A stretch of DNA of 64,000 nt. Source: Symbiodinium sp. CCMP2592 (taxonomy: Eukaryota; Sar; Dinophyceae; Suessiales; Symbiodiniaceae). A model generated the notes under the pieces. It was not told the origin of the DNA and made no database searches. It saw only the letters and a program-made list of their open reading frames with translations. Positions 17,311 to 46,449 of this stretch are shown in pieces. Position 1 is the stretch's first letter. Each line of letters opens with the position of its first letter. A program made the position numbers and the translations under genes. The stretch spans positions 1,791,158 to 1,855,157 of the forward strand of contig CAJNDT010003112.1 in NCBI GenBank assembly GCA_905221615.1. The letters run 5' to 3'.

Positions 17311-17321
17311 TATTATATAAA

Positions 17322-17410: not shown

Positions 17411-17842
17411 TGCGTGGGGGATTGATCTCGACTTGGTTGCTGCTCTCCCCACCAGAGCTGTAATGAATGTAGGTGTGGCTGGCTAGCACTCTCCACAGAC
17501 TGGACCCTGTCTCTCCCTCTTACTTCCACACGTGCGATCCTATGCAGGCAGAACCGGCGGCCGTTCCTTTTGCACTCACTGCCGGCGGCGGTTCGTCTGT
17601 GCAACGGGATAGCTCTGATTGCTCAGGATAGAAGACACATATAGCACTTAGCTATGGGCATTGACTGGAGCCAAACGTTGCGTTGGCGGTCACATAGAAA
17701 GGTAAAGACGAGGGATGCGTAGCATGCCCCCTAGAGTCGAGGGACGCGTAGCGTGCCCCCTTCTCTTGCACTTTACACGGTCTTGCTCACAGCTCTTATA
17801 GTGACACCTTAGAACTTGACAAGGCATCGCAGTCCGTTCGCA
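17411..17842 (-). repeat. 3' LTR of copia element 1
   Basis: 432 bp. Read on the minus strand it begins TGCGAACGGACTGC and ends CCCCACGCA. It matches 36669-37079 except for about three substitutions and 21 bp missing from the other copy. It contains a 22-bp imperfect tandem pair (17709-17730 and 17738-17759, GCGTAGC core) that may be a regulatory repeat. The left edge abuts EVE DNA. Confidence 0.95.
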
Positions 17843-17850
17843 CCCCCCAT
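17843..17850 (-). other. Polypurine tract
   Basis: ATGGGGGG on the minus strand, directly next to the TG that opens the 3' LTR. This is the expected primer for plus-strand DNA synthesis; the same tract is at the equivalent place in element 2. Confidence 0.8.
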
Positions 17851-18094
17851 GAGTTGCGTCTCCGACGCTGCTCACCCGGAAGATGGCACGATAGGACAAC
17901 AGAAAAAATTCCGCCGCAACGTTGACATTGAAAATCAGAGCTTTGCATCCCAATTAGAAACGTTGTGACACTCATCTACGTCAGTAACGATCCCCTGAAA
18001 TGACAAACGAATCAGGCGTCACCGAAGAAAGAAGCATTCGCGATGGCATTCCATGGGCGAAGCTCAGAGGTCACGAACTGATAGGCGAGGAAGA
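17851..18094 (-). other. 3' untranslated region of element 1
   Basis: 244 bp between the ORF2 stop and the polypurine tract. No supported ORF; closely conserved in element 2. Confidence 0.6.
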
Positions 18095-21000
18095 TCAGGC
18101 GTTGTCTCGCCACCATCTTCGCGTTGACGTAGGATCGCGTTCCCAGGGCCGGAGGTTCTCCTCTGGATACTGGTTCCTCTGCTTTCCTTTGTCCTTGCCT
18201 TTGTTTCGGCCTTTGCCGGCGATGTAGTCGTGGTAGGAATTGGTGTTCCAGCCACCATGTTGCTCACCTCCGGTTCTTCCACGCCCTTTTGAAGGTCCCT
18301 TGGATGAAGAAGCGCTTTCACGTTCCTCCGTAGTGACAGGCGTGTCCAGGATGGATGTACCACCTGGAGGAAGATAGTCAGCGGCCGAAATGTGGTGTAG
18401 GGCTTCCGTACGCTTGGTCGTCGGGTTTTGCTGTCTCTCAGCCTTGGACCTGTTCAGTCTGTCCATGAAATGCGCAGGCATTTGCACACTGTGGTCCACC
18501 AGCAAGCCGATGGTCTGGACTGACTGATCAGAATGAGTCAGCAGAATACCGACGGGGTCGATGTACAAGAAGTCCACTGGTCCAGTTGGCGTTGGTCGTA
18601 GCACTGAGAATTGTTGGTGTCCCGTCACCATTGGGATCACCTCGCACAGGACGTTCAGGCAACAAAAGTGCATAGCCTTTACATCTTCATCCCTTTCGCT
18701 CTTCAAGTAAGTAGTAGGGTTGAAGTTGTCCCTGCCAATTCCCATCATGTTGGCTCCCCGTGTAAGTAAAGAAAGCATCTGGTTCGTCCGGAAGCGCTTC
18801 AAGGTGTAAGTCCCGTTGGGATCATACTGTTTGAGGTTCTCAGGTTCCTTGGCAAAGCGAATGATCTCCTCATCAGTCACATCCTTGCTCACACCCGTTT
18901 CACTATCCACTGCCGCCAAAGATCCCCACTTTCCAAGCACATCATAGCGTTGGCCAAGTGCGAAACTTTCCCTCATCTGAAACAACGGCATAGTCGCCCA
19001 CTTTGCGAATCCTGACCAAGCCTTGTAGATGGATCTGCATACCACGTATGCCATGTACGAAAGAGCGGTCATGTTCGCGTAAATGCAATGGGCATTTCGC
19101 TTTCCAGAATAGTAGGATGGCTGCATGGCGGTACGTGCAAGTTGTAGCTCAGGATCGATGTTCAAAGACTGGCCGGTAACGAAGACGGGACGACGTTCCT
19201 GTGCAATTGCTTCTGGTACTGCGTCATCAAAGTCCTCTCCCGGCTCTATGTCCATTTCTTCATCAGGTTCCTGTTCTGGATCGTCCTCCGCGATGACAGA
19301 TGGTTCTGGGATTTCTTCAGGTTCCGCAACGGTCTCTACCTCCATGGCTTCCTGCTCCTCTTCGGGCGCCTCAGGAACTGCGGCTGCTGCGGCTTCCATT
19401 GTCTGAGCAATGAAGTCACTGGGGATCTCCGTAGGAGTCTCCCGTTGTGGAGAACCTTGGTAATATCCGCTCGAAATGAACTGTGACCAGCAAGACGTGC
19501 ATCGGGAGAAACATGCTGGAACGATGTTGTAGCATGCCGGGTATACCCTCATTCTCCGTCCATCCTCGTCTCTGCGTAGGTCTTCGGGTCGCCAATTCTT
19601 GATGACACACTTGATTCCTTTGTCCATGTAGTGATGCCGAACCGTGTTCTCCCTGTGGGACTCCAGGACAGTCGTGAGGTCACGAATGATCTGCTCCTTG
19701 CTTGTGTCGTGGGGTCCAGGAGGCATCTCGCAAAGCAATTCCATGATCTTGCTTGGCGTTCGGTATCTCTCGAACTCAGGAAGCAACGGTGATGCATGGT
19801 AGTCCAACACCAGCTCTTTCTCCAACCTTTCATCGTAGATCTTTTCCACCAGAGCGAAAGAGTGTGTATCTCGAGGATCAGGGACGCAAAACCATACCTC
19901 CTTGACGAAATGGAAAGGTATCGTTCGACCAACGATCATGATGCCGCTGTCTGTGATACGTCCATCCTCTCGTGCAAGATCTTGCGAGGGGACATGAAGG
20001 ACCGCCAATGGCATGTGCTTGGCGTCTCGTCCATGTACTCGCATCTTGGTCGTTGCGTTCCGGTGATCGAACGGCGCAAACACCCCCCAATAGCTGTGGA
20101 GTCTGCCACCTTGGTTGCCTCGGAATTGGCGCCTATGGTCGAAGTCTCCGTCGGGGTCCTCCGAACCAGGCATGATGCCTTGCGTGACAATGGAATCCAA
20201 GTTGCGGCATGCCGTACCGTGGAACGCACCTCCAAGACGTTGCAAGAGGGTCATAGATGGAGATATTGCGAACCTGTTCTTGTCCAACTGAAGCAAGTTG
20301 TTCTGGGGATCTGAGTGCGCAGAGTGACCACTCGTAGCCCGACCTGCCCATGGCTTCACCCAGCCGTTGCATATGTTCAGGTACCTCTGGCCATGCCGGC
20401 AATGATCGTTGTTCTGGATCTCCGTGATCTGGTCCTGAACCGATACCAACCTGTTCGAACCTGCTGATCCAAGAATTTCCGTGCCGGGGTCCTTCACTCT
20501 CACACCCAGGAACTGCAACCGAATCTTGGCCTTGTTGCGTTTCGTGGCTGCAATCATGTTCCCTTGGAACAACAGCTGAAGTCTTTCATTGTACACTCTC
20601 TTCTTCTGTTGATCATCGGTCCTTGAGACCCCTTCGGTGATGCGTCTGCTTTCATGGGTCCATAGTGGCTCATGCCTCACCAAGTCTTCGATCATCACCC
20701 ATCCTCCTTCATCACATTTGATGACACTGTTGAATGCCACCTGGCACCTGTTGTCAAGCCATGCCGAGCCTGGGCGCCTGGCGATTCTGTGGCGCAAGTC
20801 AGACTGGATGCATGATAGCGCCCAATCCGCGTTCAATCTGCGCTGACGGGTGATGTTGCGAAGGACAACTTCGTTCACGATGTCCCACCGATTGTTGATG
20901 AAGCTTGCACCCTTGGTTGGGATCAGGTCGAGAATCCCGCACCGGATTGGCCTTCCGCCGCCGATGGATTCATAGCCTGGCTTGGTGTAGCTATGAGTGT

Positions 21001-22168
21001 TTTCATCGTAAGCAAAGCTAGGACGGTCTCCTCGTTGAGGTAGGCGTCGGTCGCGATGGTCCGAAAGCTGCTCAATGATGTACACCACTCGCTGGCTATT
21101 CTCTGGTCCCGATTCCTGCAGTGGTACGCCACAAGCATCATGTAGGCCCCGACGGTTCTCCACATCCGTGCAGAGATTGTGTTTGTTCTCATAACGGATC
21201 AGGACCACATCACCCCGTACGGCTTCGCCTCCGCGTCGCGGTCGGGCTTTGGCCTTGGGTCGTCGGTCCGAGGATGCAACACTCACATGGTCTGTGGTGT
21301 CAACGTCCATTGGCTCAGCCTCTTGTGGAGGTACTCGAAGTGGATATCGAAGAAGGCTTTCCTTGATAATCTGGACGCCTCGAAGTACCAGATCCCGGGT
21401 CGCAGCATTTTCTGTGCAATTGGACAGAGTGTGTAGATCACTGCCACAAGCGACACAGAACGTGATGCGGTCGCTTCCGACTGACATTTCGCCCTGAGCG
21501 AGTACGCCCACATAGTCCTGAAGCTGCGCGACAAATCCTTCACGAATTGCATGCCTGGGATCAGGGCCTTCTGCACCTTGTTCTTCTTCGGGTTGCGTAT
21601 CCACATCTACATCCTGTGCAGGTATTGGTGGAGCAACTGAGAACCCTGGATCGTCCGTGACGTTGTCAGCGGCCTGTGTCTCGTCGGTTCTCGCAATCTC
21701 TACAGGGTAGATATCACCATCGACGATCACTGTGAAATCAATCACGAGGTCAGCGGACATGTTGTTGACGATCTCAGCGACTGCTTCATTCTTCTTGGGC
21801 GGTGTCCTTTTGCGCGGGGAGTCAACCGTGATCAGCTCGATAGCTTCGGCCGACGCGTAGCGGAAGAATGATCTTTCGATTCCGCTCGCGCACGCATTTG
21901 CTCCCTCAAGGCCACCCCAATTCGGAAAATGACTTGGGTGTCTCATTGCAATTGTAAGAAGCCCGAGCGCCAGCTCCACTGTGTCACCAGGAGCTCTTCC
22001 TTGGGCAAGACTGACCCTCTGTAGCATTCTTGGCGCTCTTCCGGAGTCAAAAGCATCCTCATGAAACCAGCATAAGCGCAGTTCCCGGCGTCGTAGTAGC
22101 AGATGTAGCATGTCTTGCCTTCGGAGTCGTACCCTCTGTCCCACGCCAACTGTTTGGCCTTTCCCCAT
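18095..22168 (-). CDS. Copia ORF2, C-terminal half with Tpt1/KptA-like domain
   Basis: Open frame of 1,357 codons; homology to element 2 starts at about residue 61, the earlier residues being read out of frame. In order: acidic/proline-rich linker; CCHC zinc knuckle at residues 238-251 (C-x2-C-x4-H-x4-C); basic stretch (KAKARPRR); Tpt1-like domain at about 445-765; a cysteine cluster at 879-893 (CX6CX3CX2C); a long acidic Glu/Asp/Pro linker at about 930-985; a conserved C-terminal domain; and a Gly/Lys/Arg-rich tail. Tpt1 enzymes remove the splice-junction 2'-phosphate from RNA using NAD+, and some ADP-ribosylate nucleic acid ends. The gene continues from the segment at 21943-22479 through a one-base deletion near 21988. 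Role in the element unknown. Confidence 0.8.
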   Translation of the reverse strand: MGKGQTVGVGQRVRLRRQDMLHLLLRRRELRLCWFHEDAFDSGRAPRMLQRVSLAQGRAPGDTVELALGLLTIAMRHPSHFPNWGGLEGANACASGIERSFFRYASAEAIELITVDSPRKRTPPKKNEAVAEIVNNMSADLVIDFTVIVDGDIYPVEIARTDETQAADNVTDDPGFSVAPPIPAQDVDVDTQPEEEQGAEGPDPRHAIREGFVAQLQDYVGVLAQGEMSVGSDRITFCVACGSDLHTLSNCTENAATRDLVLRGVQIIKESLLRYPLRVPPQEAEPMDVDTTDHVSVASSDRRPKAKARPRRGGEAVRGDVVLIRYENKHNLCTDVENRRGLHDACGVPLQESGPENSQRVVYIIEQLSDHRDRRLPQRGDRPSFAYDENTHSYTKPGYESIGGGRPIRCGILDLIPTKGASFINNRWDIVNEVVLRNITRQRRLNADWALSCIQSDLRHRIARRPGSAWLDNRCQVAFNSVIKCDEGGWVMIEDLVRHEPLWTHESRRITEGVSRTDDQQKKRVYNERLQLLFQGNMIAATKRNKAKIRLQFLGVRVKDPGTEILGSAGSNRLVSVQDQITEIQNNDHCRHGQRYLNICNGWVKPWAGRATSGHSAHSDPQNNLLQLDKNRFAISPSMTLLQRLGGAFHGTACRNLDSIVTQGIMPGSEDPDGDFDHRRQFRGNQGGRLHSYWGVFAPFDHRNATTKMRVHGRDAKHMPLAVLHVPSQDLAREDGRITDSGIMIVGRTIPFHFVKEVWFCVPDPRDTHSFALVEKIYDERLEKELVLDYHASPLLPEFERYRTPSKIMELLCEMPPGPHDTSKEQIIRDLTTVLESHRENTVRHHYMDKGIKCVIKNWRPEDLRRDEDGRRMRVYPACYNIVPACFSRCTSCWSQFISSGYYQGSPQRETPTEIPSDFIAQTMEAAAAAVPEAPEEEQEAMEVETVAEPEEIPEPSVIAEDDPEQEPDEEMDIEPGEDFDDAVPEAIAQERRPVFVTGQSLNIDPELQLARTAMQPSYYSGKRNAHCIYANMTALSYMAYVVCRSIYKAWSGFAKWATMPLFQMRESFALGQRYDVLGKWGSLAAVDSETGVSKDVTDEEIIRFAKEPENLKQYDPNGTYTLKRFRTNQMLSLLTRGANMMGIGRDNFNPTTYLKSERDEDVKAMHFCCLNVLCEVIPMVTGHQQFSVLRPTPTGPVDFLYIDPVGILLTHSDQSVQTIGLLVDHSVQMPAHFMDRLNRSKAERQQNPTTKRTEALHHISAADYLPPGGTSILDTPVTTEERESASSSKGPSKGRGRTGGEQHGGWNTNSYHDYIAGKGRNKGKDKGKQRNQYPEENLRPWERDPTSTRRWWRDNA
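19874..20836 (-). other. Tpt1/KptA RNA 2'-phosphotransferase-like domain in ORF2 of element 1
   Basis: Motifs appear in family order: SDLRHRIAR with the Arg-His pair (residues 459-460); DEGGWVMIEDLV (family DGWV-x-DLL); RATSGHS (610-616; family RANQGHS); AFHGT...GIMPG (650-668; family YHGT...GL-PM); an HS pair (691-692); and a final IPFHFVKEVW strand. The spacing is stretched by long insertions. The fold is that of ADP-ribosyltransferases. The call rests on motif order, not on a search. Confidence 0.75.
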
Positions 22169-22479
22169 GCCGCGTACTCGATGGCCTGACTGGCTGTGAT
22201 TCGGAGACCACCGTAGTGAGAAACCGTCTTGCCGATGTCTTCATAGACCATCTCCGCACAAACTTTGAGGAACTCCTTGATGTCCACGCGAGGATCCACG
22301 AATTGAAGCCTCAGGTCATAAAGGTGCTTTGCGCAAGCCAAGGTGTACTTCTGGGACGTGATCAAGTCATTGAAGGAGCCGATTTGATGCTGCATCTTCA
22401 AGGCTGAAGTATGCGCGCACCAATGCAGTGTCCAGGATACCCGTTTCCGGTCGGCTTGAAGAAGGCTTGTGCGTAGCAC
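21943..22479 (-). pseudogene. Copia ORF2, displaced middle segment
   Basis: Continues ORF2 between two one-base deletions relative to element 2 (near 22421 and 21988). It includes a cysteine-rich stretch GKTCYICYYDAGNC and a later C, possibly a zinc site, after a helical segment (KYTLACAKHLYDLRLQF). In element 2 the same residues lie in one unbroken frame, so the break is specific to this copy. Confidence 0.7.
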
Positions 22480-24860
22480 TCAGCCAACTTCATTGCTTCA
22501 CATCCAGGGCAATAGAACGTTCTCCCTTTGACATAACCAGTGTTCAGGGTCGCATAGGTGTCGATCCTGAACCAGTAGTGCCTGTTGTCGTAGTAGGCTT
22601 CGGGAACGGTCATGGCGATGTCAAAATCCTGCCAGGTGACTGTGGACGATTCAGCGACCGTGTCACCCTGGGCACCCGACCTGATCTGTTGCTGCTGTTC
22701 CCCCGTAAACCATGTCTGCGAAATCTTGGTGGACGTCTTGACTTCACTCTTGTCCTCCCAAATCTCAACAAGCGACGGGTGAGCGACTGAGTCGGTTCGG
22801 ACTGTTTCGTCCCATGAGCGAACTTTCGATGCCTCAACAAAGCACGTGGATACCATCTTCTCGCAGAACAGCTGCTTCTCGTAGATAGCGAGGCCCAATT
22901 TGAACCTGACCCGATTGTCCGGTGGTGGCACCTTTTCGACTGACAGTGTATGCACGCCTGACGACGCATGTTTCGCCTGGCTGTACATTCTTGACCAAAA
23001 CGAAGATCCATGAATCACCACGCATGCTCGGGCCCGCAACTCCAGTTCAATATACATTCCCAGCGCGTGGAAACCGTTGAACATAGAAGCTTTCTGTCGA
23101 AGGTAATTGCTGGCTGCTCCTACGAACCGTAAGTCGTGATTGATGTTGACAATTGGAGGGCGCGTGGTACGCTTCCCTGCCGCAATGATAGGGTCAACGT
23201 ACGTGACCTTGAGCTGTCGCTGCAAGTCAGCACGAATCGCTGCTCCGTCTCCGACCTCACTCATCGGAAATGATATGTTCTCGATGAGGATCGCCTGGAG
23301 AGACAGATGGTAATGCAACGTGACGGTTGCAAGCTGCTCTTCAGTCAAGCCATCCAATGTCTCATTCACAGATTCCAACGATCCCTTTGTGACTTGGAAG
23401 TTGTAGTTGGCACCTGCGGTGATCGACGGGCTCACAATGTAGATCTCACTCCATCCATGCATGACGAGATTTTCTCTCACTGTATGCGATGACCCTCTGG
23501 TCCTTGCGACCATGTCAAAGTCTTGGACGAGGATTGTGCATTGAGAGCGCATAGTCGCGGCATCAGGCTTGCCACCCATACCCAAACTATTGCGAAATCC
23601 GTTCAGCGTGTTCATGGTGTTGATCCTTGCTTCTGCCGGAATTTCATCGTTGTCGACAAGATCGCTGTCTGCCTCGATCATCACTGCCGAGGTAAGCATT
23701 GGAGGAGAAGGAAGATGCACGCACGACACCAATGCCAATGCATGGTACAGCCGCGAATACATCCGTAACCACATCTTCGTGCTCAGCTTCACGTAGACCT
23801 TCAGGTTGAGACCCTTGTCGTCACTTTGAGAGACGGAACGAATCCTTGCCAAGTAGGTCACCAGTCTTCTGACGTAATGCTGAATCGGTGTGGTCCCCAC
23901 GTCGTGGTTGGCCACGAACTTGGGCGTCTCATCAATGGTAGGTGGGTACTCGTCTTGATCACGGGTCGTCGCCAGCAAGCTCGAGCGACAGCCCTTTTCA
24001 TCGATGTTGACATAATGGTACCAACTTTCCTGAGCGCCAGCGGGGATTGGAGCTTCCTCCCATGTCGGTTGCGATGGTTCCTCTTCCGGTTGCGAAGTCG
24101 GTTGTTGTGGAGGAGGTGCCGCAGAAGATGACGACGCCGATGCCGTTGCCTCGTCCGTCCTTGCCCTCTTTGGTCCGTTGCTAGGGGTGGCTCGAGGTCC
24201 GGCAGCGGATCCTTGCGATTGTTCCGGCGTTCTTCCATGCTCAGGGTGCACGATTCCTTCCGGTTCGAGGTTGCTTGCCGTAGGCATCGCCACCCTCCCC
24301 GTTGAGTACACCCAGCTAGGATGCCGTTGAAGGTTGGGCGGAAATAGGCCATCATCTTGCATAAGCGGACTTGGTGCCCCCATCTGTTGGAATTCTGCTT
24401 CCCATATGCTCAACGTGGCGCGTTTGGTAGAGCAGTCAACCACATACCCAGATTCAACTCCGCACTGATTCCAGGTGTAGCTACGGAACGCATCCGGCAA
24501 TTGGAAGCCGTTCCTGTCCTGATCTGCACATACAGCATCCACATGGTGCTTGAGGAAAGAATACGTGGTGTAGTCGGAATCAGGGAGCACATCGTTGGAC
24601 CATCTGTAATGCGGGTGTCCAGTATCTGGATCAACCCATGATACGTAGGAATGAAGCACGTGGAGACAGACACTGAACGCCTGGAGCGAGTTCATCGCAA
24701 AGGCGAGCGGATGTCCCATGCCTTGAGGCATTGTGCGCATCATCAAGCCAGCTGGTGAACGTTGAGTGGCGTAGCGCCATCGTTGTTCGCAGCACATTCC
24801 TGGTTGTAGGTCCGTAGTCCATATCCAGTGTGTTTCGCGAACATGTACATCAGCTTGCAC
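22398..24860 (-). CDS. Copia ORF2, central segment
   Basis: Frame of 820 codons; the ORF2 homology starts near 24744, after a one-base deletion relative to element 2. It holds a Ser/Ala/Pro/Gln-rich linker (about residues 200-270), then a large folded region with no family I recognise. A CPGC...C...H-C-I-G Cys/His cluster near the 3' end runs into the next frame. The protein is over 90% similar by eye to element 2, with many synonymous changes, suggesting it was under selection. No transmembrane segment is evident, so it is not obviously an envelope protein. Confidence 0.65.
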   Translation of the reverse strand: MQADVHVRETHWIWTTDLQPGMCCEQRWRYATQRSPAGLMMRTMPQGMGHPLAFAMNSLQAFSVCLHVLHSYVSWVDPDTGHPHYRWSNDVLPDSDYTTYSFLKHHVDAVCADQDRNGFQLPDAFRSYTWNQCGVESGYVVDCSTKRATLSIWEAEFQQMGAPSPLMQDDGLFPPNLQRHPSWVYSTGRVAMPTASNLEPEGIVHPEHGRTPEQSQGSAAGPRATPSNGPKRARTDEATASASSSSAAPPPQQPTSQPEEEPSQPTWEEAPIPAGAQESWYHYVNIDEKGCRSSLLATTRDQDEYPPTIDETPKFVANHDVGTTPIQHYVRRLVTYLARIRSVSQSDDKGLNLKVYVKLSTKMWLRMYSRLYHALALVSCVHLPSPPMLTSAVMIEADSDLVDNDEIPAEARINTMNTLNGFRNSLGMGGKPDAATMRSQCTILVQDFDMVARTRGSSHTVRENLVMHGWSEIYIVSPSITAGANYNFQVTKGSLESVNETLDGLTEEQLATVTLHYHLSLQAILIENISFPMSEVGDGAAIRADLQRQLKVTYVDPIIAAGKRTTRPPIVNINHDLRFVGAASNYLRQKASMFNGFHALGMYIELELRARACVVIHGSSFWSRMYSQAKHASSGVHTLSVEKVPPPDNRVRFKLGLAIYEKQLFCEKMVSTCFVEASKVRSWDETVRTDSVAHPSLVEIWEDKSEVKTSTKISQTWFTGEQQQQIRSGAQGDTVAESSTVTWQDFDIAMTVPEAYYDNRHYWFRIDTYATLNTGYVKGRTFYCPGCEAMKLAECYAQAFFKPTGNGYPGHCIGARILQP

Positions 24861-25594
24861 ACCCTACATAACGTAGGCTCCGCCAACAGGTCTGATTGGT
24901 CAGGTGCTCTACCCGACATTGGCAACTTGTGGTAGTAGTCCTGATTCACCGTATACCATTGTTGAATTCTCGTGTCTGTCACAGTCTGGTAGGGCGTCTC
25001 CACGGAGTTGATGAGAACAGCGAGGTTGTAGTAGCCGTCCGCAGTGACGATGTTCCTTGTTGCAGTGTTCAAGTCGAACCGAACTTGCTTTCGTTCTTGT
25101 TCCAGTTCAACCACAGCCAATTTTGCATCATCGCGGATCACTTCCTCATCCACCATGAACCTGGTGATGGCATTGAACTTCCCCTCGTGGTCAGCAACAA
25201 TGTGTTTGAGACCTCCACCAAACTTAGTGACCATGGCGAGTATCTCCCCATAGGGTTTGTCCATGTACTCCTCAGGAGCAGCAAGCAAGCAAGCTTTGAG
25301 GATTTCTCGGACTCGAATGGAAAGATCTCCACCTGACGACAGATTTGCACACGTGAACAGCAAGACCAACGGAGGTGCTTTGAAAGCTGCCCATGTGCGA
25401 ATGAGATCATTGTCGACCACTTTGTCTTTCGTAATCTTCGGCGGGAGCGAGACGCTCTGCGACGCATCCCCAGAATACATCTCCAGGAACTTGTGGAACT
25501 TCAGAAACGTTCGCATCATCCCACCAGACGGGAAAACTTCCTCGTGGTCCACTCCATCGAAGGCCAGCTCGTAGGCATTGTAGCTTTCAGCCAT
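24743..25594 (-). CDS. Copia ORF2, N-terminal segment
   Basis: ATG at 25594, conserved at 54205 in element 2. Largely helical, with LCRVCKLMYMFAKHTGYG and a later Cys, a possible zinc site. No recognised family; it is not a Gag, protease or envelope. The frame ends at 24743 because one A is missing relative to element 2 near 24744. It begins about 112 bp after the ORF1 stop, so it needs its own start signal, reinitiation or trans-splicing. Confidence 0.7.
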   Translation of the reverse strand: MAESYNAYELAFDGVDHEEVFPSGGMMRTFLKFHKFLEMYSGDASQSVSLPPKITKDKVVDNDLIRTWAAFKAPPLVLLFTCANLSSGGDLSIRVREILKACLLAAPEEYMDKPYGEILAMVTKFGGGLKHIVADHEGKFNAITRFMVDEEVIRDDAKLAVVELEQERKQVRFDLNTATRNIVTADGYYNLAVLINSVETPYQTVTDTRIQQWYTVNQDYYHKLPMSGRAPDQSDLLAEPTLCRVCKLMYMFAKHTGYGLRTYNQECAANNDGATPLNVHQLA

Positions 25595-25706: not shown

Positions 25707-27653
25707 TTAGTTGTTCCTTAGTTGGGGCTGTCTAATAGCCCCTTCATCAGCGTCTACACACTGATGTTGCTGCCATGCAATGTCCTCAGATTCATGTGCA
25801 CCATGACTGACACTGACATGAGCTCGAACAAGGCTGCGAACATTCCTCGCAATTGACCGCCATGAGACATCAATGCGCTGCGACAAACTGTTCTTCGAAT
25901 CATGGTCCAAGCAATCATTCAGTCTCATCACCAAACGGTCCGCTTCAGGCATGTTAGAGAACATGATCCTGCGTCCACCACCATCGCCATCAGCACCAAC
26001 ATGATCATCAACCTTAACCTTCGTCACCTTGCCACTTGAAACAAGAGCATGCAACTCTGGCCAAGACCAACATGAACATGAAGAAGGCATGTCAAGCGAA
26101 AAATAGACGTCGGAAAATTCCGCACACTTCTTCAGCAGGCGTTTGAGAGATTTCAAGACACTTCTGAAAACCTTGTACTTCCCACCAGAACGTTTTTCAC
26201 CCCCCACGCAAGCCCCTTCACTACTTCCAGGACCAGCACCTGATCGCAAAAGCGATGCCACGAATAGCACAGGTGTGCGCAGGTCGTTCCGGCACGCATC
26301 CTTCATGTACCGATAAGGCTGTCCTCATCGGCTTTGGAGCTGATCAGCTCCTTGCAAGTTATGCGAGAGCAACCCTTAGTGGACTTAGGTACGGCGTAGC
26401 CGTTACCCAAGCCACAAAGGTCAACAATCATGCGGTCTGGCTTCCGTCCACCAGCCTTCGACGGCATGGCTACCAACCTCCCATCGCCAGTTGCCTGAAA
26501 TTTCAAGGCTTTAAGCAATCTTCTGGAGATTTGGCTAGTCAACTCGCATTTATCAGATCGATCCTTAGCGTCCGAATCAGTCATGTGCAAATGTTTGGAC
26601 GAGCACACATCAGACGACTTAGGATGCAGCGCGACGTTTGCGGCAATGTACTCCCATTCATCCTTGCAGTAGCCGAGCTCAACGGCGGTTCCAGGAGACA
26701 CAGGATCCCGAAAGGTATAACGTTGCCCGTGAGTGCATCCTTGGATCTTGATGCTCTTCCACATGGCATCTTCCTGAAGTCCCTTATACTGCTTGGTTTC
26801 CTGGACTGGTACTCGAGGAGGCACTTCGATGATGATTTGGAACCCCCATGACGCCGCTCTGCGCGCAATTCTTTGGACGACCTCCCCCCATGGGTAGTCT
26901 GTCCGCAATTTGGCCCTTTTCAGGGTTGTCAGCGATTTTCCGACTCAGCCACGAATTCTTGCCCAACACCCCTGCACCAATGAAGATTACGGAGTTAGGG
27001 TTGTCTTTCCTTGCTTCCACCACATCAAAGATGTAGGCGCACATGGCGTCGTCAACTTCTCGCCCCATACTCAGAACATTTACTTGCAGCCCAGGGTCGT
27101 AGTGAGAATCGGGAGCATGCTGGGCGATGCAATCCTTGCCTGGAGCATACTCATTCCACCAGTTCTCCTCATCGACTCCTATCAATGTCCATACCGTCAC
27201 TGCCTTTGGAGCATCTTTGATAGTGATACGGTACTTCCACCGGCTGTAAGGATTCTTGTAAGCATGGACCAACCTTCCATCGTGGTCGAGGAATTGGATC
27301 ACCAGACCCTCCTTGGGCTTGTTTTCGGCGAAATTGACCACGTGAGGCACAATTGCTCCATCATATCCTTGATATTCCTTTTTCTGTTCCGCCGCATCTT
27401 GCCATACATCTTCGTACACCGACGACCATTGGTCATAACCAAATTGAGAGGCTTGACTCTTGGATTGGCCGTTGAAACAAAATCCCTGGTGTAATGTAAA
27501 GCCCTGGTACCCCCCATGGATGGCACGCGCCAGTGTGACAACCACCGCTCGCCACTTGGCGGGCAGGGCGCGCACATAAGACTGGCCTAGAGGCGGTTCA
27601 GGAATAGGCAAAAACGGCGGCGCAAGGACGTCCGCAATGGCAGCGGGGCGCAA
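25707..27653 (-). pseudogene. ORF1 C-terminal extension of element 1, frameshifted
   Basis: Continues gag-pol past RNase H, in three frames: 27653-26784, 26908-26303 and 26306-25707. Compared with element 2, single-base changes sit near 27657, 26920 (four T instead of three) and 26306. Visible: the WRAVVVTLARAIHGGYQGF segment, VGVDEENWWNEYAPG, SVIFIGAGVLGKN, and a Cys/His-rich part (IQGCTHGQRY, then SSDVCSSKHLHMTD). The last part resembles a domain I recall from other dinoflagellate retrotransposon polyproteins, but I cannot name it. Total extension is about 700 residues, far beyond a normal copia Pol. Confidence 0.65.
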
Positions 27654-30600
27654 ATGCCCCGCACGGGATGGTACTGAAACACAGCACGTTCCACGTAGCG
27701 GTCGAACTTGCCCGGTGTGTCAAGGATAGCAGCACGATCCTCCATCTGGTGCCACTGCCCTTCACGAAGAATCCAAGTCGACCGAAGGTAACGACCAGGC
27801 GGCAACGCGGAAGGCGGCCCCCGCAACATGCGCGGGAACTTGACAACCAGGATGGGGTCCACACTGTCATGTTCTTGCAAGCCTTCCTTACTCGACAATC
27901 CAGCGCGATACAACACCTGAGGGAGGATCGGCGTCTGCGTGTAAGGAAAACAAGGCACCTCGCTCTTGAACGAGTAGTGCTGCTGACCCTTCTCATCCGT
28001 ACTTTGGGAATGAGTAGGTCGCATCAGATCCATAATCTCCTGGGAGCCAATGAGATCCGGCGGAAAGATGTTGATGAGCTGACACGCATGTGTCCAGGAT
28101 ACGGAATCCTTGAACGACTTGGTGTGTATGTCCGCGGACATCTTGGCAGTGACCTCGTAGGCAAGAGAAACGTAACCTTCCTGAAAGATAGAATGCATCC
28201 ATCCAATGCAGATACCGTGGGTACGTTCCAAGTGACGCATAGTCGGATTCTTGCCCGTGCGAATCACCCCGATCATGGTCTGGTTGTCGTCGTAGAAGAC
28301 GAAGTTGGGGTCTTGCCCCCCAAGCTGCTGCCACAACGTGATAGCAGGCAATCCAAGACGTGACATGGCAAAGTCGGCCGCGACAATCTCGGCCTCAGGT
28401 GTGGAATGACTCAAGCATCCCTGCCTTTTGCTAAGTCCCGCCAAGGGAAATCTTGTGTGAGAACCTTGAATGTGCAAGTGAGCACCGGAGGTAGATTTCA
28501 AACTTTCTCCACAACCTGCATAGTCCGCATCTGCAAACAGCCCGATGGACGAGTCCTCCAAGGAGTTCCCGACCCATCCAATCATCATGTGATGTTTGGA
28601 CTGGTGCACATAGGCCATGAGATGATGAAGAAGAGCATCCTCCTTCTTGGTCCATTTCGTGATCTTGCGTGCGAGATTGTTGATACTGCGCAGAAGATCA
28701 AAGCGGCAAATGCGCGCGGCATAAAGCAATTTCATGAGAATGCTGGCTGCCTGCGGAGCAAGTGCGCCGCGATTGGCCTCGTTGATTTCCTCTTCCTCGG
28801 GCGCCTTGGGAATAGGTGGAGGCGGAACGAGCCGACCATCCTTATCAACAGGCATGGTGTGTCCACACCACGTGCATCGATGGCTTTTACCTGACTGTGC
28901 CGGAGCGCGAGCTGGGTGATTCTTAGTCTCCTCAGCCGGACTCGGCGATGGTACCGTCTTGAATTTGGTCGGATCGAACCCAGTCACGTCGCAGTACTTC
29001 TTGACTGTCATGTCCAGGTACGTCTCCATGTCGTAGGTAACGGTCTGCACCTTCGTTTTGTCATGCAACGTTGCCTCGCCCTTGGAGATGCGACAACCCA
29101 GATACAAGCCCAGCGGCGTTTCTTCTTCCAATCGAAGTTCTTGGCGCAGCATATCCCAACCCTTGGGTAGATTCTCTTTGGGTCCTGCCATCTTGAGATC
29201 ATCCACGTAGATGACAAGTAAGAGCTTCATTTGCGGGTGAAAATACAATGATGGCCATTCATCACCAATCGGCTTGAACCCTACTTTCTGTACCGCGGTG
29301 TGGCAATGTTGTTCCCACATGGTTCCTGCGTCAGGATGTCCATATAGAGCTTTGATCAGGCGGCATACCGGCCTACGGAATTTGTGCCGTTTCGCAGATG
29401 GATGCCAGGCTTCATCAGGCAGTTCAACCCAACATGGAGTGCCCGATAGTCTCGCCTGAATATATGCTTGGATAGCATCCGCCATCTGGACATCATTGCC
29501 AGGAAGACATCCGTAATAATCTGCCCATCGTGAGGCGTCAAACGTAGCCGGGGAATTCCCCAAATCCTGAAACAATGCGGCTTCCATATTCTGGTCTTTG
29601 ACCTGATCACCGAGTAGTACACCTCGCCCCTTGAACTTCCTGGCAGGGTCGTCCTCTTTGAGCTGATAGTTCTTCTCGTATATCAGTCCATGTACTCGCG
29701 CCATATGTACTTTCTCACCTTTCTTCTTTGCCTCAGCGACGACGTCGTCATATTCACGCGTAGTTGAGAAGTCAAACACCTCTTGGTCCCACAATCCCTT
29801 CCATTCTTTCATGAAAGCTTCCATGGCCTTGGGATTGTTGATCATCTCCTTGCGTGTGACGGGTCGAGTGACCATGGCATTGAAGCACGATCCTCCTGCA
29901 TGATTCTTTTCCCGATGTACGTTTCTGTGAGAAGTCGTACACGGCATAGAAGGAATCCAGTTATCGTCCATGACCATATGCGCCGGAACGGCCGGCACGA
30001 CATCTGCCAAGAATTGTTCTTGTGTATATTGATCCACATAGGACTGTGCCCATGACCAACCATCGTCGTCGTCAACGGTCACGTTGAGTTGCAGATCAAT
30101 TTCTTCACACGGAACAATCTTGGGAAAGATCATGTTGTCCAAAGTCTTGGTGACTATCTTCTTTCCTATCACAGCCTTCTTCCGGTCTTTCTTGGCAACT
30201 CGAGCTTTGTCTCGCTTTTCTTTCTTGTATGCTGCCTTCTTCTCCGCTTCGCTCATCTTCTTCCATGCTTCCGGAGAATATGAATGGATAGGTCGCCGTG
30301 TAGGAAGAGTTCGTCGACCATCACTTCGGATCTTGTACGGAACTCCCCTTTTGTCGATCTTGCAAGCTTCACCGTCATCGGTAAGATATACAATGCCGTC
30401 TCCTTTCTTCCCCGTACTCCAATGTTCAATCTCCTCGGGAGCCAACTTCTTTTCTTTCAAGATCTTGATAATCTCTCCAGGTTCTTCGATGTCTCCTTCG
30501 GGGATGAGTCTACCGGTTGGACCGACTTCGCGGGGCGATCGTCGATCTTTCCCAGTGACCTTTGGTTCAGAAGGAGGCGGTGCTGCACGTAGACCCAGCT

Positions 30601-33600
30601 CTTCGTCTAGTTCTTCGAGTCTTTTGTCTCCTATGGCATCAATAGCTTCATGTTCTGCTGACTTGAAGACTTCGCCGAGCGGCTCCGTCTCAATGTCAGA
30701 TGGATCTATGTCCTGTAAGTCAGGATCTTCTCCGGGATCCGGTGGAGGAAGAAGTCCACTTGGATCATCGTCATCCCCGTCGCCACCATCTCCTCCAGGC
30801 GGACCGTCACCACCGTCATCGACGTCTTTTATCTCCTTGCCAGCGAGGTCAACGTTGTCCCTGAGTCCCTCAATGGTTGAATTCATCCTTTCGTACTCGG
30901 CTTTCAGGGGAAACGTTATCTCCTCTGGGAAGTAGATAACTTCTGTCTCGTACGGTCTCATCAACTTCCTGGGAACAGATGCGTCCATCGACAAGTTCGC
31001 GTTGGCAAATTCCTTCATATCCCAAACGCGATACTTCTTGGACCACCCTTGACCAGCAGTGATGATGTATCCGGCGAAAATGCCTGGAATCCCCTTTGGA
31101 TCGAATTTGTTGCCATATGTCTTCGGCCTTGTGTCCGTCGGCTTGAAGAAGACTTTGGCACCAAAGGGTATGGCTTTTCCCTCGAAGTCCTTTCCAGTCA
31201 TTCGCTTCCATGCTGAATCACCGTCGCCTTCCACGTCTTCAACGTTGAGGTTCTGCATCACGCAATTAAGCGCAAAGGACCAGTATTGAGCGGGCAATCC
31301 GGCGTGTAGCATGGATGCTGCGACTGTGTTGATCACTTCTTGATTTGATCGTTCAGCGAGTGAATTGTTACTGGGTTTCCCCGGAAGGGAATGATCGATC
31401 ACGATCTTCAACTGTGCCATAGCTGAATCGAACTCTGGTGCTTCATCACTGTACGCCATATGAATCTTGCGTCTCCCCATTAGGCGTCTGATGGCCATGA
31501 CGACTTCGTCAGTGCTCCTTGAAGCCGTGGGAATCGCTGCGATCATTTTGGTGGCGATGTCCCTGATGACTAGAACTTCACGTGCACCGTCATCGAGTCC
31601 AATACCTGCTTCGGCGGCCTTGCGCATGTCAAGGAAGTCGAACGTCACAAGATCTCCCCAGTGTTTGATCACACGTTGAAATGCACCTCGTTGTGTTCGC
31701 AAGTGCTTCATCTTCGCGCGTATGCACGATTCGCAATATGGATTGCGGTAGCGATGGGTACACAGATGTGCCAATGTCTTAGCTTCGGCTTTCAGTGTTC
31801 CGACTCTGGCCTTGCGGCTCGGCGCACCGTCGCCTTCCACATCAATGATCACCTCATCGTCACCATCCAATGGAATTTCACCCACTCCTTTTCCTTCGTC
31901 GTCGTCCGGAGGTCGTCCGGCCTCGGACTCTGGTACTTCTTCTATAGGAGGTTCTTGGGGTTCAGGATCAGGAGGTCGTTCATGATCATCACCTTCTTCT
32001 TCTGCTTCGATCTCGCTCGGTGCAGCTTCAGCGGCAGCTGCGACGCTGACGTCAACATTGCCTGCTGTCAACGCACCTTTGAAGATTTCGGTGATGGCTT
32101 TGGCCTCCGGATCATCATGAACCAATGACTTAGAACTCCCAGCACGGACGTACGGGATGTCACCGTTCACGAACAGAGATATTCTCTTGCCCTGCGGGTT
32201 GATCATGAATGGTTCCCTTCCGGGAGGCCACACAAACCCGTAGTTGAAGTTCATACATCTCTTGCCTATGGAAAGCACCGACGGCGTGTCGTCCAACACA
32301 TAAGCGTTGATCGGTTCCTCGAACGACTCAGTCTGGAAATTCGACACGAGATCGGTATCGGTGATTCCATTGGCTGTCTGAAATGATATGGGCTCTGGAG
32401 TCACGAGTGTTTCGAGACTGTGCTTCTCGATCTTCTTCTGAGATATGAGGTCATGACCACATCCAGTGTCCATGAGAAACTTGATCTTCTTCTTAAGGAT
32501 GACTGGTTGAACCATGCATTTGAATAACCCTTGATTGATGATCCGTTTGCTGTGTGCAGCATCGAGTTCGCGCTCAACGATGGAATCCTCACCGTCGTAG
32601 AACGAAACTTCTTCCACTCGAGACGTTCCTGGGATTCGTACGAATGAAACTCGATCTCCGCATTGATCATCATCGTCGTCAACCATATCTCTCATGATCT
32701 GTGCCCTCAATCTCGCTTTGTGCTTGGCGAACTCCAGATTCACAGCGCGATCCTCATCATTGACAAACGCTTCCATGTCGACGTACTTCACCTTCCGCTC
32801 TCTGTCTTTCTTCGATCGTCTAGGACACGAAGAAATGAACTTCACGTCATTGGCAAATGTCACATTGCGCTTTGTCACTTTTCGGGTCGACGTAGTCGTT
32901 CCCGAGGATTCGTCATCTGTTGAACAATCCGAATCAGCGTCGCTGTCAACGGATGGACAATCTGACTCCTCCTCATCTTGCTTTGAAGATCGCTTCCATA
33001 TAGCCGGAGCTGATGGATTCCACCTTCGACACAATCTGATGGCGGGTGCTGCAGGAAGTGCCTTGGCCTTGGCATTCGGCTTCGCTGGAGCTGCCTTTGC
33101 TTCGGATTTGGCTTTAGCTTTTGCCTTTGGTTCCGGAGCTGGGGTAGCTGCTGCCTCATGCTTGAAAGGACAATTCTCTCTTGAGCACGAGCCTGTGTTC
33201 TTGAACGAGTAGCAAATCCTGTTTCCTCCTCCTCCAGATGGACTTGGAGTTCTTGTCCTCGGCGTGAAGGGTCGTTCTGGAGTCTTCTTCGAGTGACTGA
33301 ATGGACACTTATCGCCATTTCGACACCCTGCATCTGTGAAATGGAACTTGCAGCGGATTTGCTTCTTGCTTTTGTCACCTCTGTTGTCCGCTGACTCACT
33401 CCTCGTCTTCTTCTTGGGCTTCGGCTTGGTCTTCGCATGACTCTTCGCTTTGCTTTGAGGTAGTACAGGTGTTGCTTTGTCCGGCTTGGTCGGCGAAGCC
33501 TTGACCTTTGCGGATGGAGCTGCGTTAGGCGTAGGTTTCTCAGGTACCTTGGCCGGTGCAGCAAGCAAATCCTTGCCCTCAAGCATCTGGCGCAAGCCAA

Positions 33601-36600
33601 TTTGAGTCTGAGTGAGATTTGACTGTTCTCGTTTCCGCATGATGGTACGATCAATGATCTTCATCAGGTTGTCGTACGATCGATCTTCATGATTGTAGGG
33701 CAGATGTTCATAGTGCATGCCCAAATCCATTTTCATTGCGGGCGAGTCCTTGATCTTGCTGTACAAGCAATCACGGAGAGCTGTTTTGGATGGAATGTCC
33801 TCTGGTCTCATCCGTCCCAGAACTTCCAACCACGTCTGCTTGAACGTATGGAGCTTGTTGTCGCCTTGGTACTGGAGCTTCACCAAATACTCAAGAGTGA
33901 TGATCATGTCAAGACGATCATGCGTTCGAAAACTTTCGTACATCATCGCGATGACTTGTCGTCCTTTGATGATCTTCACGTCAGGCCTGCTGATGTAATC
34001 GTTGGCCTTCCGGTTCACCTCGAGGTACAGGTCAGCTGATTTGTCACCACCGGCACGTAGCATTGCGACCATGGCAATCCCCAATTTGACGTCGATGCTC
34101 TTGAACTTCTTGTGTCCTGAATCATTCAATGCTTCGACATCAGGGAATGGGTTGAACGCTGGTGCCAGCCATAACATCCAGTCCTCATGATGTGGGTCGG
34201 CTGATGCCCCTAAGACATTTGCCGTGCACACAGATCGCCAGTTGTTGAGATGAGTGAGAGTAGGCCATGGAGGAACGGTCACTTTGTCGGCTTCCCTCCT
34301 GGAAATTCTCACCTCTGTAACTTCAGGATCCGCATCTCCATCAGGATCACGCGCATGCGAACCAGGATCCGATTCGGGTTTGCCCCCTCCACCTTTCTTC
34401 TTGTCATCATCGTCGTCAGGCGGATCTGGAGGATCATACCCCGTGCCGGTACCTTCATCATGCTCTTCCTCTCCGTTCTCGTCGCCAGCTTCATCACCGT
34501 CATCGTCTCCATTGTTTTCTTGAATCGTTTCAGCGAATAATCTCCACTCATCACGATCAGCTCTGAGACGTTGTTCGGCTTTCTGAGCCTTGAGTACTTC
34601 ACTTCGCAGATCAGCAATCTTCTCCTCGTACTGTTCCGCGATCTCTTTCTCGATCTGACGCCTCCTTGCCTCATGGATGGAATCGTCATAGGCGACAGGG
34701 GGACCAATGAGGTCGTTGCCCTTAGTAGATGCGGTGACACCGTCGATGCCAACAGGTCTTGAGGAGCTGGCCGATGCTGTGGACTTCGATCCCAACATCC
34801 CGCGATCCCCCAAGAGCTCGCGTAGCTGTCGATCACGCACGGCTGCCGCATCACTTTTCCCATGAAATCCGCTTGGTATGCCAAACAAAGTGGCTGCACT
34901 AGGCGTGGAACGCGCAAGCGCTGGGCTGCTAATACCTGGCACGTGGTGCTCGGGCATTGCATCCGCCACGATTGGCATTGAACTGCGGCCAGTGAAGAAG
35001 TTTCCACCGGTGAATGGAATTCCGTCCATCACAAGGTTCTTGTCCTTGTCCGATTCCGAGAATGCGAACTTCTCTTTGGCGACTGGACTAACTTGACTTG
35101 GGGACCGTATTTCAGGGGATCGTACCTCATCTCCTACGGAAAATGCAGGCATTACATCCTTTCCTACGTGCTCCCAGCCAGACTCAGTAGTCCTCGAAGA
35201 CATGGGCATGCTCGAAGGTCGCGTCGCTCCTCCTTGATTGGAGTTTCGTGCTGCCTCCAATTCGCTGCGTGTCCTCGCTTGAAGATCTTCTTGTGCTTTG
35301 AGCGTTTTCCTGAGTTCACTCAGCTCGTCGTGCAAGGTAGGCAATGATCGCCTTGCATGATCTTCATTCTGATGAAGTCGTTCCTCTGCTTCTTGCATCC
35401 TCTTCACAGCCATTCTGCGGTACTCTTCCTCTTCACCAAGACGTTCGCGAAGCCGAAATCGTTCTTGTTCAATGGCTGCGCTGTTTCCAGCTAGCCCTTG
35501 GATCTCGTTCACAGCCCGCAACTCCTGGTTCTTGACCAAGTGGAATCGTTCCTGCATTGCTTGTAAGGCTTGTTCCGAACTTGCTGTGTTTGACCGGAGG
35601 ACCAAGTTCTCTCTGGCGTGTTCATGAAGTTCATGAGTCAGACGCTCATACTCACGTGCCATAAGCTCACCATCACCTTGCGCTCTTGCCTCCAACTGCA
35701 CAAAGTTGGTGGCTGCCTCCGTGCGGAACACGTGTAGCTGTTGAGCTAAATCCTCGGCAACGGCATGTGCTTGACGTTGTTGAGCAGAGTTCTGCTCATC
35801 CATGCGAAACAAAGCTGTTTCATAGTCTCGCTTCATCTCCTGATTGACATTGTTGATGTGCCTCATGGCTAAGCATGCATGATCACGTTGTCGTTCCAAT
35901 TCTTCAATGCGAATTCCAGATCCTTCATCTTCTTGCTGCATCTCCTTGATCTTGTCCATCAGGGTCTGGACGATTCCTTCGTATTCTTGCACCTGACTGC
36001 GATAGTACATCTGCTGTGCAAGGTTCGATGCTTCGAACTGTTGCGAAATCGTCAGCTCCTGGTAGGCATTCGGACCGTCAGCTATTGCAGGCGTGGCAAC
36101 GGATGACGCATCACCACGTGCAGGAATCGTATCCAGAGTCATGTCCAGATCGTCAGTATCGCGTGGTTGATTGGTAACCATCCGATTCCAAGTCATGGAC
36201 TTGTCACGCCCACGAGTAGCCGAAGTCCTCGATCGTGCTGAAGAGCTTCTCGAAGATGATGGCCTTGACTTCTTTTCCAAGGTCTTGACTCCTTTGTCCT
36301 TAGCCCTGGACGTAGTCCGAGGTGCCTGAAAACCAGACGCTTCGGCCCGTCGTTCTGAAGCCTTGCCCGTCCTCGAACCTGTGGATGTCGGACGTGAAGG
36401 CGTAGATGCTCTTGGTAGACTCTTTGCTTTCCCCTTGGGAACTGCCTTTGCAATGGCAAGCGCAGAAGATTGACCTTTGTCATCTTCCGTGGAGCTATCA
36501 ACGGATTGCACCACTGTGTCATCAGCTGTTGACTCACCAACGGCTGGCGCTGCCACATCGGCACCGAAAGTCATTGTCGTATCTTGACTTGATCCTGAGT

Positions 36601-36604: not shown

Positions 36605-36649
36605 TGTGGTCGTAGTAGATCAAGTAGTCGTTGCTGTAGAAAGGCAGAG
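36605..36649 (-). other. Short leader between primer-binding site and gag start
   Basis: 45 bp; no features beyond a GC-rich edge that can form a small stem (GCCG/CGGC around CGTA). The very short leader fits a gag ATG used directly. Confidence 0.5.
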
Positions 36650-36668
36650 CCGCGTACGGCTGATAACC
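36650..36668 (-). other. Primer-binding site, half-tRNA type (putative)
   Basis: Read on the minus strand this is GGTTATCAGCCGTACGCGG, directly after the LTR end ACGCA. Drosophila copia is primed by a 5' tRNA half and its site begins GGTTATG. Here the primer would end CTGATAACC, matching an anticodon loop CTGATAA plus two stem bases. It does not start with TGG as a full-length tRNA 3' end would require. Confidence 0.55.
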
Positions 36669-37079
36669 TGCGTGGGGGATTGATCTCGACTTGGTTGCTG
36701 CTCTCCCCACCAGAGCTGTAATGAATGTAGGTGTGGCTGGCTAGCACTCTCCACAGACTGGACCCTGTCTCTCCCTCTTACTCCCACACGTGCGATCCTA
36801 TGCAGGCAGAACCGGCGGCCGTTCCTTTTGCACTCACTGCCGGCGGCGGTTCGTCTGTGCAACGGGATAGCTCTGATTGCTCAGGATAGAAGACACATAT
36901 AGCACTTAGCTATGGGCATTGACTTGAGCCAAACGTTGCGTTGGCGGTCACATAGAAAGGTAAAGACGAGGGATGCGTAGCATGCCCCTTAGAGTCGAGG
37001 GACGCGTAGCGTGCCCCCTTCTCTTGCACTTTACACGGTCTTGCTCACAGCTCTTATAGTGACACCTTATCCGTTCGCA
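36669..37079 (-). repeat. 5' LTR of copia element 1
   Basis: 411 bp with TG...CA ends. Lacks 21 bp near its 5' end that both other LTR copies have (GAACTTGACAAGGC region). Otherwise nearly identical to 17411-17842. The right flank (ATAAC) is half of a family D foldback element. Confidence 0.95.
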
Positions 37080-46001: not shown

Positions 46002-46449
46002 TGCGTGGGGAATTGATCTCGATTATGTTGCTGCTCTCCCCACCGGAGCTGTAATGAATATAGGTGTGGCTGGCTTGCACTCTCCACAGACTGGGACCCT
46101 ATCTCTTTCACACTTCCACACGTGCAATCCTATGCAGGCAGAACCGGCGGCCGTTCCTTTTGCACTCGCTGCCGGCGGCGGTTCGTCTGTGCACGGGATA
46201 GCTCTGATTGCTCAGGATAGAAGACACATATAGCACTTAGCTATGGGCATTGACTTGAGCCAAACGTTGCGTGGGCGGTCACATAGAAAGGTAAGGAGAA
46301 GCGATGCGGTGTGCGTAGCACGTCCACAAGCTTACTCCTAGAGTCGAGGGACGCGTAGCGTGCCCCCTTCTCTTGCACTTTACACGGTCTTGCTCACAGC
46401 TCTTATAGTGACACCTTAGAACTTGACAAGGCATCGCAGTCCGTTCGCA
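46002..46449 (-). repeat. 3' LTR of copia element 2
   Basis: 448 bp, TG...CA ends, clearly homologous to both LTRs of element 1 but more diverged. The U3 tandem-repeat zone has an extra AGCGATGCGGTGTGCG-type segment. The 21 bp missing from 36669-37079 are present here. Confidence 0.95.

Follow-up and report, generated by a model that had tools for sequence, protein, structure and literature searches.

What use could a retrotransposon have for an RNA 2'-phosphotransferase? The question is raised by a stretch of 64,000 nucleotides from Symbiodinium sp. CCMP2592 (assembly GCA_905221615.1, contig CAJNDT010003112.1, positions 1,791,158 to 1,855,157 of the forward strand), probably a coral-symbiont alga; the stretch is here called the window, and holds two copies of a Ty1/copia-type long terminal repeat (LTR) retrotransposon. 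A first-pass annotation of the bare sequence had noticed five motifs of the Tpt1/KptA family in the second open reading frame (ORF2) of both copies, and had ascribed to the element an RNA-end-processing activity of its own. The analysis described here leads us to regard the domain as almost certainly a member of the Tpt1 family carried by a copia element.

Both Tpt1-bearing frames were read from the minus strand. In copy 1 the frame at 18095-22240 (-) is open for 1,381 codons, and its product, P0001, contains LRHR at residues 482-485, DEGGWV at 510-515, RATSGHS at 634-640, FHGT at 673-676, GIMPG at 688-692 and GRTIPFHFVKEVW at 771-783. The motifs follow the same order in the 1,981-codon frame of copy 2 (P0002), where FHAT replaces FHGT and GGWVLIEDLV replaces GGWVMIEDLV. 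All five motifs named by the first-pass annotation were thus recovered in the family order in both copies, on a strand that it had not specified. The domain was delimited at 19796..20845 (-) in copy 1 (P0001 residues 466-815), which takes in the 19874-20836 interval first proposed, and at 48403..49449 (-) in copy 2, with 92% identity between the two. In P0001, R483, H484, R634, H674 and T676 correspond to catalytic residues of Tpt1, with R713 as the candidate for the fourth Arg of the tetrad. The domain lies in the middle of ORF2, after gag-pol, and is open in both copies although neither ORF2 of the window is intact; the frame changes of both fall outside it. In an intact relative ORF2 encodes 2,490 amino acids.

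Family membership and active-site residues

When the family was compared with seven true Tpt1 proteins using hhalign, scores of 52-59 were obtained; 200 column shuffles never gave more than 23.8, and segments of ORF2 lying outside the domain no more than 19.7. The confident stretch ran from RATSGHS into the NAD lobe, and the winged-helix part was aligned only with relaxed trimming. An AlphaFold model of the domain (pLDDT 79) displayed a two-lobe fold, with a winged-helix RNA lobe and an NAD lobe of the ADP-ribosyltransferase type, and Tpt1/KptA structures occupied all of rows 1-16 when it was searched with VIA-align (13-22% identity). ADP-ribosyltransferases appeared from row 17 on; they match the NAD lobe only and were not taken as functional relatives. 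The top viral structural match was a Bodo saltans virus protein. Among 21 family proteins scanned, nine matched Pfam PF01885, and one (P0032, 27.4 bits) exceeded its cut-off. NCBIfam gave a single sub-threshold RNA 2'-phosphotransferase row for P0001 (13.3 bits against a cut-off of 239, E 0.055) and nothing for two long homologues, P0060 and P0061; PHROGs gave nothing for any of the three, and a single-sequence phmmer search of the PDB found no match. Viral contigs yielded 41 pattern matches, none related to the family. The Tpt1-like identity was borne out by hhalign scores beyond the shuffles and by a structural comparison that placed Tpt1 first, so that where an insignificant profile match or an unrelated fold had been named as grounds for abandoning it, similarity beyond the controls and a Tpt1-type fold were found.

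In the Tpt1 of C. thermocellum, the essential tetrad consists of Arg18, His19, Arg68 and Arg121, while NAD is contacted by His101/Thr103 and Arg139; for the Runella enzyme in yeast, H99A-T101A was lethal and R137A barely viable, whereas S8A, K9A and K62A were viable (as given in excerpts of PMC6333775). Conservation was counted over 63 aligned stretches of the element family, using filled columns only. R483 (48/48), R634 (33/33), R713 (26/26) and R734 (21/21) were invariant, H484 (45/48), H674 (31/33) and T676 (32/33) nearly so, and the position of Lys66 was occupied by A in 32 of 33. Residues were then paired by hhalign in 15 runs that varied the query leader (three), the alignment (two) and the settings (three). 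Arg68, His101 and Thr103 paired with R634, H674 and T676, or with their columns, in every run, and Arg18 and His19 with R483 and H484 in all ten runs with relaxed end trimming, lying outside the reported stretch in the other five. Three residues of the tetrad and the HxT pair are therefore firmly matched to Tpt1 as far as alignment can tell. R713 was assigned by the pattern R-x-x-x-[HY] and is kept as the likely fourth residue because R-x-x-x-H-F-G, present in the family members P0007 and P0009, corresponds to R-x-x-x-H-L-S of Tpt1. The Arg-His-Arg-Arg correspondence that the first-pass annotation put up for checking thus stands, by sequence alignment, for Arg-His-Arg together with HxT, and for the last Arg in some alignments only. 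R734, initially read from the motifs as the equivalent of Arg139, lies near that position and does not align with it, so this assignment was not borne out by the pairing; an NAD contact of the Arg139 type may have been lost or replaced in the family.

The domain resembles known Tpt1/KptA proteins (PF01885) in its winged-helix and NAD lobes, the Arg-His and Arg of the tetrad and the HxT motif. It differs in being set within a retroelement protein of about 2,490 amino acids, in having roughly twice the length, with inserts after the winged helix and within the NAD lobe, and in belonging to a family that mostly has HAT, with a fourth tetrad Arg recognised by pattern only and no firm match for Arg139.

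Purifying selection on the domain in the copia family is supported by the ratio of nonsynonymous to synonymous substitution (dN/dS) between the window copies. It was 0.157 for the Tpt1 domain as a whole, 0.210 for the N-lobe and 0.095 for the NAD lobe, the lowest of the ORF2 values among the rows kept; elsewhere it was 0.106 for the N part of ORF2, 0.369 before the domain, 0.126 after it and 0.040 for reverse transcriptase (RT)/RNase H. Two rows, labelled "ORF2 mid" and "ORF1 protease/int?", were dropped since the frames that they set side by side are in part different.

Protein searches gave 7, 50 and 7 rows, in which all matches with a named organism were from Symbiodinium, the closest among the matches listed being from S. 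microadriaticum (96%); identity within the family ranges from about 35 to 92%. P0060 is an uninterrupted homologue of 2,490 amino acids, 78% identical. P0061, from Symbiodinium sp. KB8 (2,505 amino acids), starts with a copia RNase H that is 92% identical to residues 2679-2992 of the window ORF1, and extends from there over the ORF1 tail and ORF2 as far as the Tpt1 domain, within which it stops short of the NAD lobe. Because P0061 repeats the junction in Symbiodinium sp. KB8, the linkage of copia and Tpt1 is not an accident of the window. Together, sequence and model support the view that a Ty1/copia-type family of Symbiodinium carries a divergent Tpt1/KptA member in ORF2.

Tpt1 domains in other retroelements of the same genome

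A search of the organism's own assembly (1,098 Mb) with PF01885 gave at least 152 matches, with 150 of 1,550 first-look candidates scored. Those listed all exceed the cut-off, at 92-178 bits: 16 at 147-178 bits, the remainder mostly at 130-140 bits with many in frames of 665 amino acids, and two partial matches at 92 and 97 bits. Selected loci were examined with 7.9-9.9 kb of flanking DNA, and in most of them the matches were found within one of two LINE-like families that encode a reverse transcriptase and have closer Tpt1 relatives. The domain first described in a copia element is therefore not restricted to such elements in this genome.

The first of these, family A (contigs C890, C5312, C1669 and C5079), consists of 10.1-kb units with a 665-amino-acid ORF that matches PF01885 at 137 bits and a separate ORF of 1,576 amino acids with RVT_1 at 79 bits and a weak endonuclease match; RVT_1 was recognised in each of the two RT frames scanned. 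In C890 the units stand head to tail, three of them (L016-L018) at G000:C890:309000-338700, and Tpt1 matches are likewise about 10 kb apart in C5312 and C980. The RT ORF of one unit (L017:66-4793 (-)) ends in a ubiquitin carboxyl-terminal hydrolase (PF00443, 33.8 bits, cut-off 23.9), and the first half of its 665-amino-acid Tpt1 ORF (L017:6097-8091 (-)) holds a PARP-like stretch (PF00644, 20.9 bits, below the cut-off of 26.7). Family B has an ORF with PF01885 at 152-154 bits, which at loci L021 and L025 is accompanied by Exo_endo_phos (35-42 bits) and then a frame with RVT_1 (37-75 bits). Within the same group, L027 has RT-like motifs by script pattern only, and no such motifs were present at L028 in the 2.5 kb remaining on the contig. 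A further locus, L009 (G000:C4512:154221-157691), has a 164-bit Tpt1 match in a 242-amino-acid frame that starts inside the profile, and possibly represents an exon of a Tpt1 gene belonging to the host itself.

The R-H pair, R, HGT and the R of R-x-H-[IV]-H were all seen in the seven family B and five family A translations that span them (L009 begins past the first pair, and L019 was left out). Values of dN/dS were 0.040-0.188 in 15 pairs among L010-L015, 0.119-0.124 in the 6 pairs of L008 with these, and 0.060-0.076 in 4 family A pairs with L017, the other 6 family A pairs being almost without synonymous change; in the copies tested, the LINE-borne Tpt1 sequences were thus found to be under purifying selection. 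In a tree of 21 domains, copia, A and B each formed one clade (support 100/100, 100/98 and 95/97), and the copia set stood on a long branch apart from the bacterial and LINE-borne Tpt1s (100/100; the branches are long and the midpoint root is arbitrary). The presence of Tpt1 in several kinds of retroelement of one genome suggests that they took up the RNA-repair tool more than once. One possible history, to which we give even chances, is that unrelated retroelements of a single dinoflagellate lineage (copia and two LINE-like) acquired Tpt1/KptA on no fewer than two, perhaps three, occasions and that selection has kept it in them, where it would aid reverse transcription or counter-defence by removing 2'-phosphates from cut tRNAs or from RNA of the element.

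Symbiodinium was already known to have retroelements that captured enzymes acting on nucleic acids. The DNMT-retrotransposons SymbioLINE-Dnmt and SymbioDIRS-Dnmt3 are comparable in that, within the same genus, several classes of retroelement carry an enzyme that modifies nucleic acids and is under purifying selection. They differ in the enzyme, a DNA methyltransferase, and in its carriers, LINE and DIRS elements, with copia said to be without it (excerpts of PMC5890265); in the present case copia and two LINE-like families carry an RNA 2'-phosphotransferase-like domain. No report of Tpt1-carrying retrotransposons was found among the matches listed from open-licence PMC literature, subscription journals lying outside that scope, and in the same scope Tpt1 as a captured enzyme of three retroelement families is without prior report. 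The theme of Symbiodinium retroelements acquiring such enzymes would thereby extend from DNA methylation to RNA repair.

Proposed function and its rivals

The reading that we favour, with moderate confidence overall, is that the copia-borne domain would be functional as an NAD+-dependent RNA 2'-phosphotransferase within the replication complex of the element. An enzyme is supported by the conserved residues and the purifying selection, and from these sequences we infer that the element has an RNA-end-processing activity of its own. Catalysis is probable, with odds lowered by the want of a firm match for the fourth tetrad Arg and for Arg137/139. Whether clean-up of 2'-phosphates on RNA would be its main role is evenly balanced. 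Such removal might make primers or templates usable for reverse transcription; a half-tRNA produced by a metal-independent nuclease, for example, would need its 3' end cleaned before it could prime. Directly after the 5' LTR of copy 1, the minus strand holds a sequence like a primer-binding site, GGTTATCAGCC (36658..36668 (-)). Its complement, GGCUGAUAACC, reads as the anticodon arm GG-CUGAUAA-CC and would fit a tRNA-Ile with inosine pairing to C, by analogy with the 1/2tRNA-Ile primer sites of Bianca copia elements (PMC6317226, in part). Half-tRNA priming is also described for Drosophila copia, and anticodon-loop priming for Ty5 (PMC5371799, in part). The plant elements Bianca, Osser, Bryco and Gymco-II, which have a half-tRNA primer site, and SIRE, which has an extra ORF, share with the present element the copia superfamily, a primer site read as an anticodon arm and an additional ORF; they differ in that excerpts of PMC6317226 make no mention of Tpt1 and in that the primer site here comes from one copy. 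A half-tRNA primer as the substrate seems to us doubtful.

A number of observations weigh against the favoured reading. P0001 matched PF01885 at 22.1 bits (E 1.7e-4), under the curated cut-off of 26, and because the match fell below Pfam's own cut-off the window protein was filed as a divergent relative; the profile match that had been sought thus came from hhalign and not from Pfam. Twelve of the 21 family proteins, intact P0060 among them, had no PF01885 match, and the matches listed from the organism's own assembly score far above the window protein. In a plain Foldseek search of the PDB Tpt1 came top with marginal values (best E 1.3e-3, query-normalised TM 0.24-0.31), and a shallow first AlphaFold model, made with 7 sequences, reached a pLDDT of 53 and was excluded from the fold searches. 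In 27 of 33 family stretches the middle position of HGT holds A, HAT being the usual form. Arg121 paired with the R713 column in 3 of the 15 hhalign runs, all led by P0009, and was placed by gap on E694 or a P in the other 12, while Tpt1 Arg139 (Runella Arg137) paired with R738, A740, a D or R, or nothing. Both ORF2 copies of the window are broken. The primer-site reading rests on a single 11-nt site in one copy, and past the window end, at the expected place of the 5' LTR of copy 2, the sequence reads N. Alternatively, GGTTATCAGCC may be a ragged site for the 3' end of tRNA-Met; cutting of the RNase P type leaves a clean 3'-OH, and we know of no plant half-tRNA copia element that carries Tpt1. 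Finally, profile scans of ORF1 and ORF2 recognised no partner enzyme (2H phosphoesterase, kinase or RNA ligase), and the ORF2 profile gave five weak rows in the PDB (E 0.028-0.82; ZCCHC8 three times, ZFAT and a cytidylyltransferase) with no RNA-repair partner.

Taken at their strongest, the weak single-sequence searches (no phmmer match in the PDB, Pfam below cut-off) would mean chance similarity of motifs in an ORF unrelated to Tpt1. This is exceedingly improbable, as it is contradicted by the profile-profile scores against 200 shuffles and the ORF2-segment controls, and by the first 16 rows of the VIA-align result; nine members also match PF01885. A catalytically dead or repurposed fold, which would do no more than bind RNA or NAD within a structural ORF2 product, would sit well with the strong divergence, the long inserts, HAT in most members, the sub-threshold Pfam score, the lack of a firm match for Arg139 and the gap dependence of Arg121. 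We consider it quite unlikely, however, since R483, H484, R634, H674, T676 and R713 are near-invariant across proteins of about 35-92% identity and the NAD lobe has the lowest ORF2 dN/dS kept (0.095). If the domain is an enzyme, it could instead ADP-ribosylate phosphorylated RNA or cDNA ends, as a reversible cap against exonucleases, ligases or sensing, and remove no 2'-phosphate. RNA ADP-ribosylation by TRPT1/KptA is the topic of PMC9458441 and PMC6582358 (excerpts), the titles of structure entries record crystals of TkoKptA with DNA and with 5'-p-ADPR-DNA, and the HxT pair of the NAD lobe is conserved. Yet R483 and R634, which correspond to tetrad Args tied to step 2 in excerpts of PMC6333775, are invariant in the family, as expected of an enzyme that needs the second, phosphate-transferring step. 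End capping could do without that step, and capping in place of phosphate removal is unlikely.

A rival that we take more seriously, while placing it at somewhat less than even chances, is that the domain mends tRNAs or RNA of the element after host RNases have cut them in defence, and so would serve counter-defence with no direct role in reverse transcription. KptA has been reported from phages, Bodo saltans virus, sawfly baculoviruses and some polyproteins of positive-strand RNA viruses, and counter-defence has been proposed for it (PMC9503650, in part); these are likewise Tpt1/KptA proteins on selfish replicons, with the difference that the carriers are viruses, and "retrotranspos" occurs 0 times in the main text of that paper. 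Carriage by LINE-like elements suits a need shared by retroelements better than it suits LTR priming. LINE-like families do not use tRNA primers, so that the shared explanation is rather the repair of cut RNA, and the presence of Tpt1 in two of them points to an RNA-repair need common to the retroelements of this host, beyond LTR priming alone. On the other side, the profile scans recognised neither a ligase nor a kinase nor a 2H partner in the element, and ligation would for this reason have to rely on host enzymes.

If the history of repeated capture given above is true, NAD+-dependent RNA repair would be a recurrent accessory of retrotransposons. What purpose Tpt1/KptA serves apart from tRNA splicing in fungi is still an open question, its loss being without phenotype in E. 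coli or mouse (excerpts of PMC6333775). A genome with at least 152 Tpt1 matches, several of which lie in retroelements and are under purifying selection, offers a setting in which that use can be tested, and raises the questions of which RNA bears the 2'-phosphate and whether transposition requires its removal.

The host element and its surroundings

Copy 1 of the element spans 17411 to 37079 (19.7 kb) and is 94% identical to copy 2 over 18 kb, the latter being incomplete as the window end cuts it. The order is gag-pol, then an ORF1 extension with a shared stop, then ORF2. The 5' LTR of copy 1 was placed by LTR comparison at 36669..37079 (-). The 3' LTR (17411..17842 (-)), reading TGCGAACGGA...CACGCA on the minus strand, has 3 mismatches in 401 aligned bp against 36669-37069, with a 21-bp indel before the common TCCGTTCGCA end, and is adjoined by GGGGGG (17843..17848 (-)), the probable polypurine tract. 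The 3010-amino-acid gag-pol frame of ORF1 (27587..36619 (-)) has CCCH zinc fingers and RVT_2 above the Pfam cut-off (RVT_2 at 33.3 bits against 31.6), with protease and SH3-like matches below it; upstream of RVT_2, where copia order would place the integrase, the only matches are rve_3 (E 0.15) and SH3_retrovirus (E 0.0067), both below cut-off. With RVT_2 above cut-off and two LTRs with TG...CA ends in copy 1, the host is, by sequence, a Ty1/copia-type LTR retrotransposon, as the first-pass annotation had held. A 5-bp target-site duplication was not found at copy 1, where the flanks GTTTA and ATAAC differ; recombination between copies might explain this.

Past RNase H, the C-terminal extension of ORF1 (25707..27719 (-)) occupies several frames in copy 1 and ends in a stop common to both copies (QLRNN), with at most 51% identity to P0061. 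This ORF1 tail looked methyltransferase-like by eye in P0009; the resemblance has no Pfam support and is not claimed as such. ORF2 of copy 1 (18095..25594 (-)) changes frame near 24745, 22419 and 21988, as located by tblastn with intact P0060. In copy 2, the 3' LTR (46002..46449 (-)) matches the 5' LTR of copy 1 at 90% identity over 420 bp, ORF2 (46720..54205 (-)) has a frame change near 52600 and an in-frame stop at 47044, and the ORF1 frames (54317..63999 (-)) continue past the window end. Other frames of the element gave weak Pfam matches (PBECR1, DUF5423, Strep_pep and zf-RING_16) that stayed below cut-off and were set aside. Upstream of the Tpt1 domain, ORF2 has a conserved region (22398-24863 (-); P0060 residues 540-990) with no family match, followed by cysteine pairs of the CxxC type that resemble a zinc ribbon.

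The 3' LTR of copy 1 begins about 70 bp beyond a low-GC block at 10504-17343 (31-34% up to 16 kb). The block contains a Pox_A32-type ATPase (29.1 bits, cut-off 22.8) and a tail-fibre-like ORF with an S74 peptidase match (32.7 bits, cut-off 22), along with GIY-YIG-like and capsid-like ORFs recognised by eye only, without a Pfam match, and resembles an endogenous polinton-like virus or virophage.

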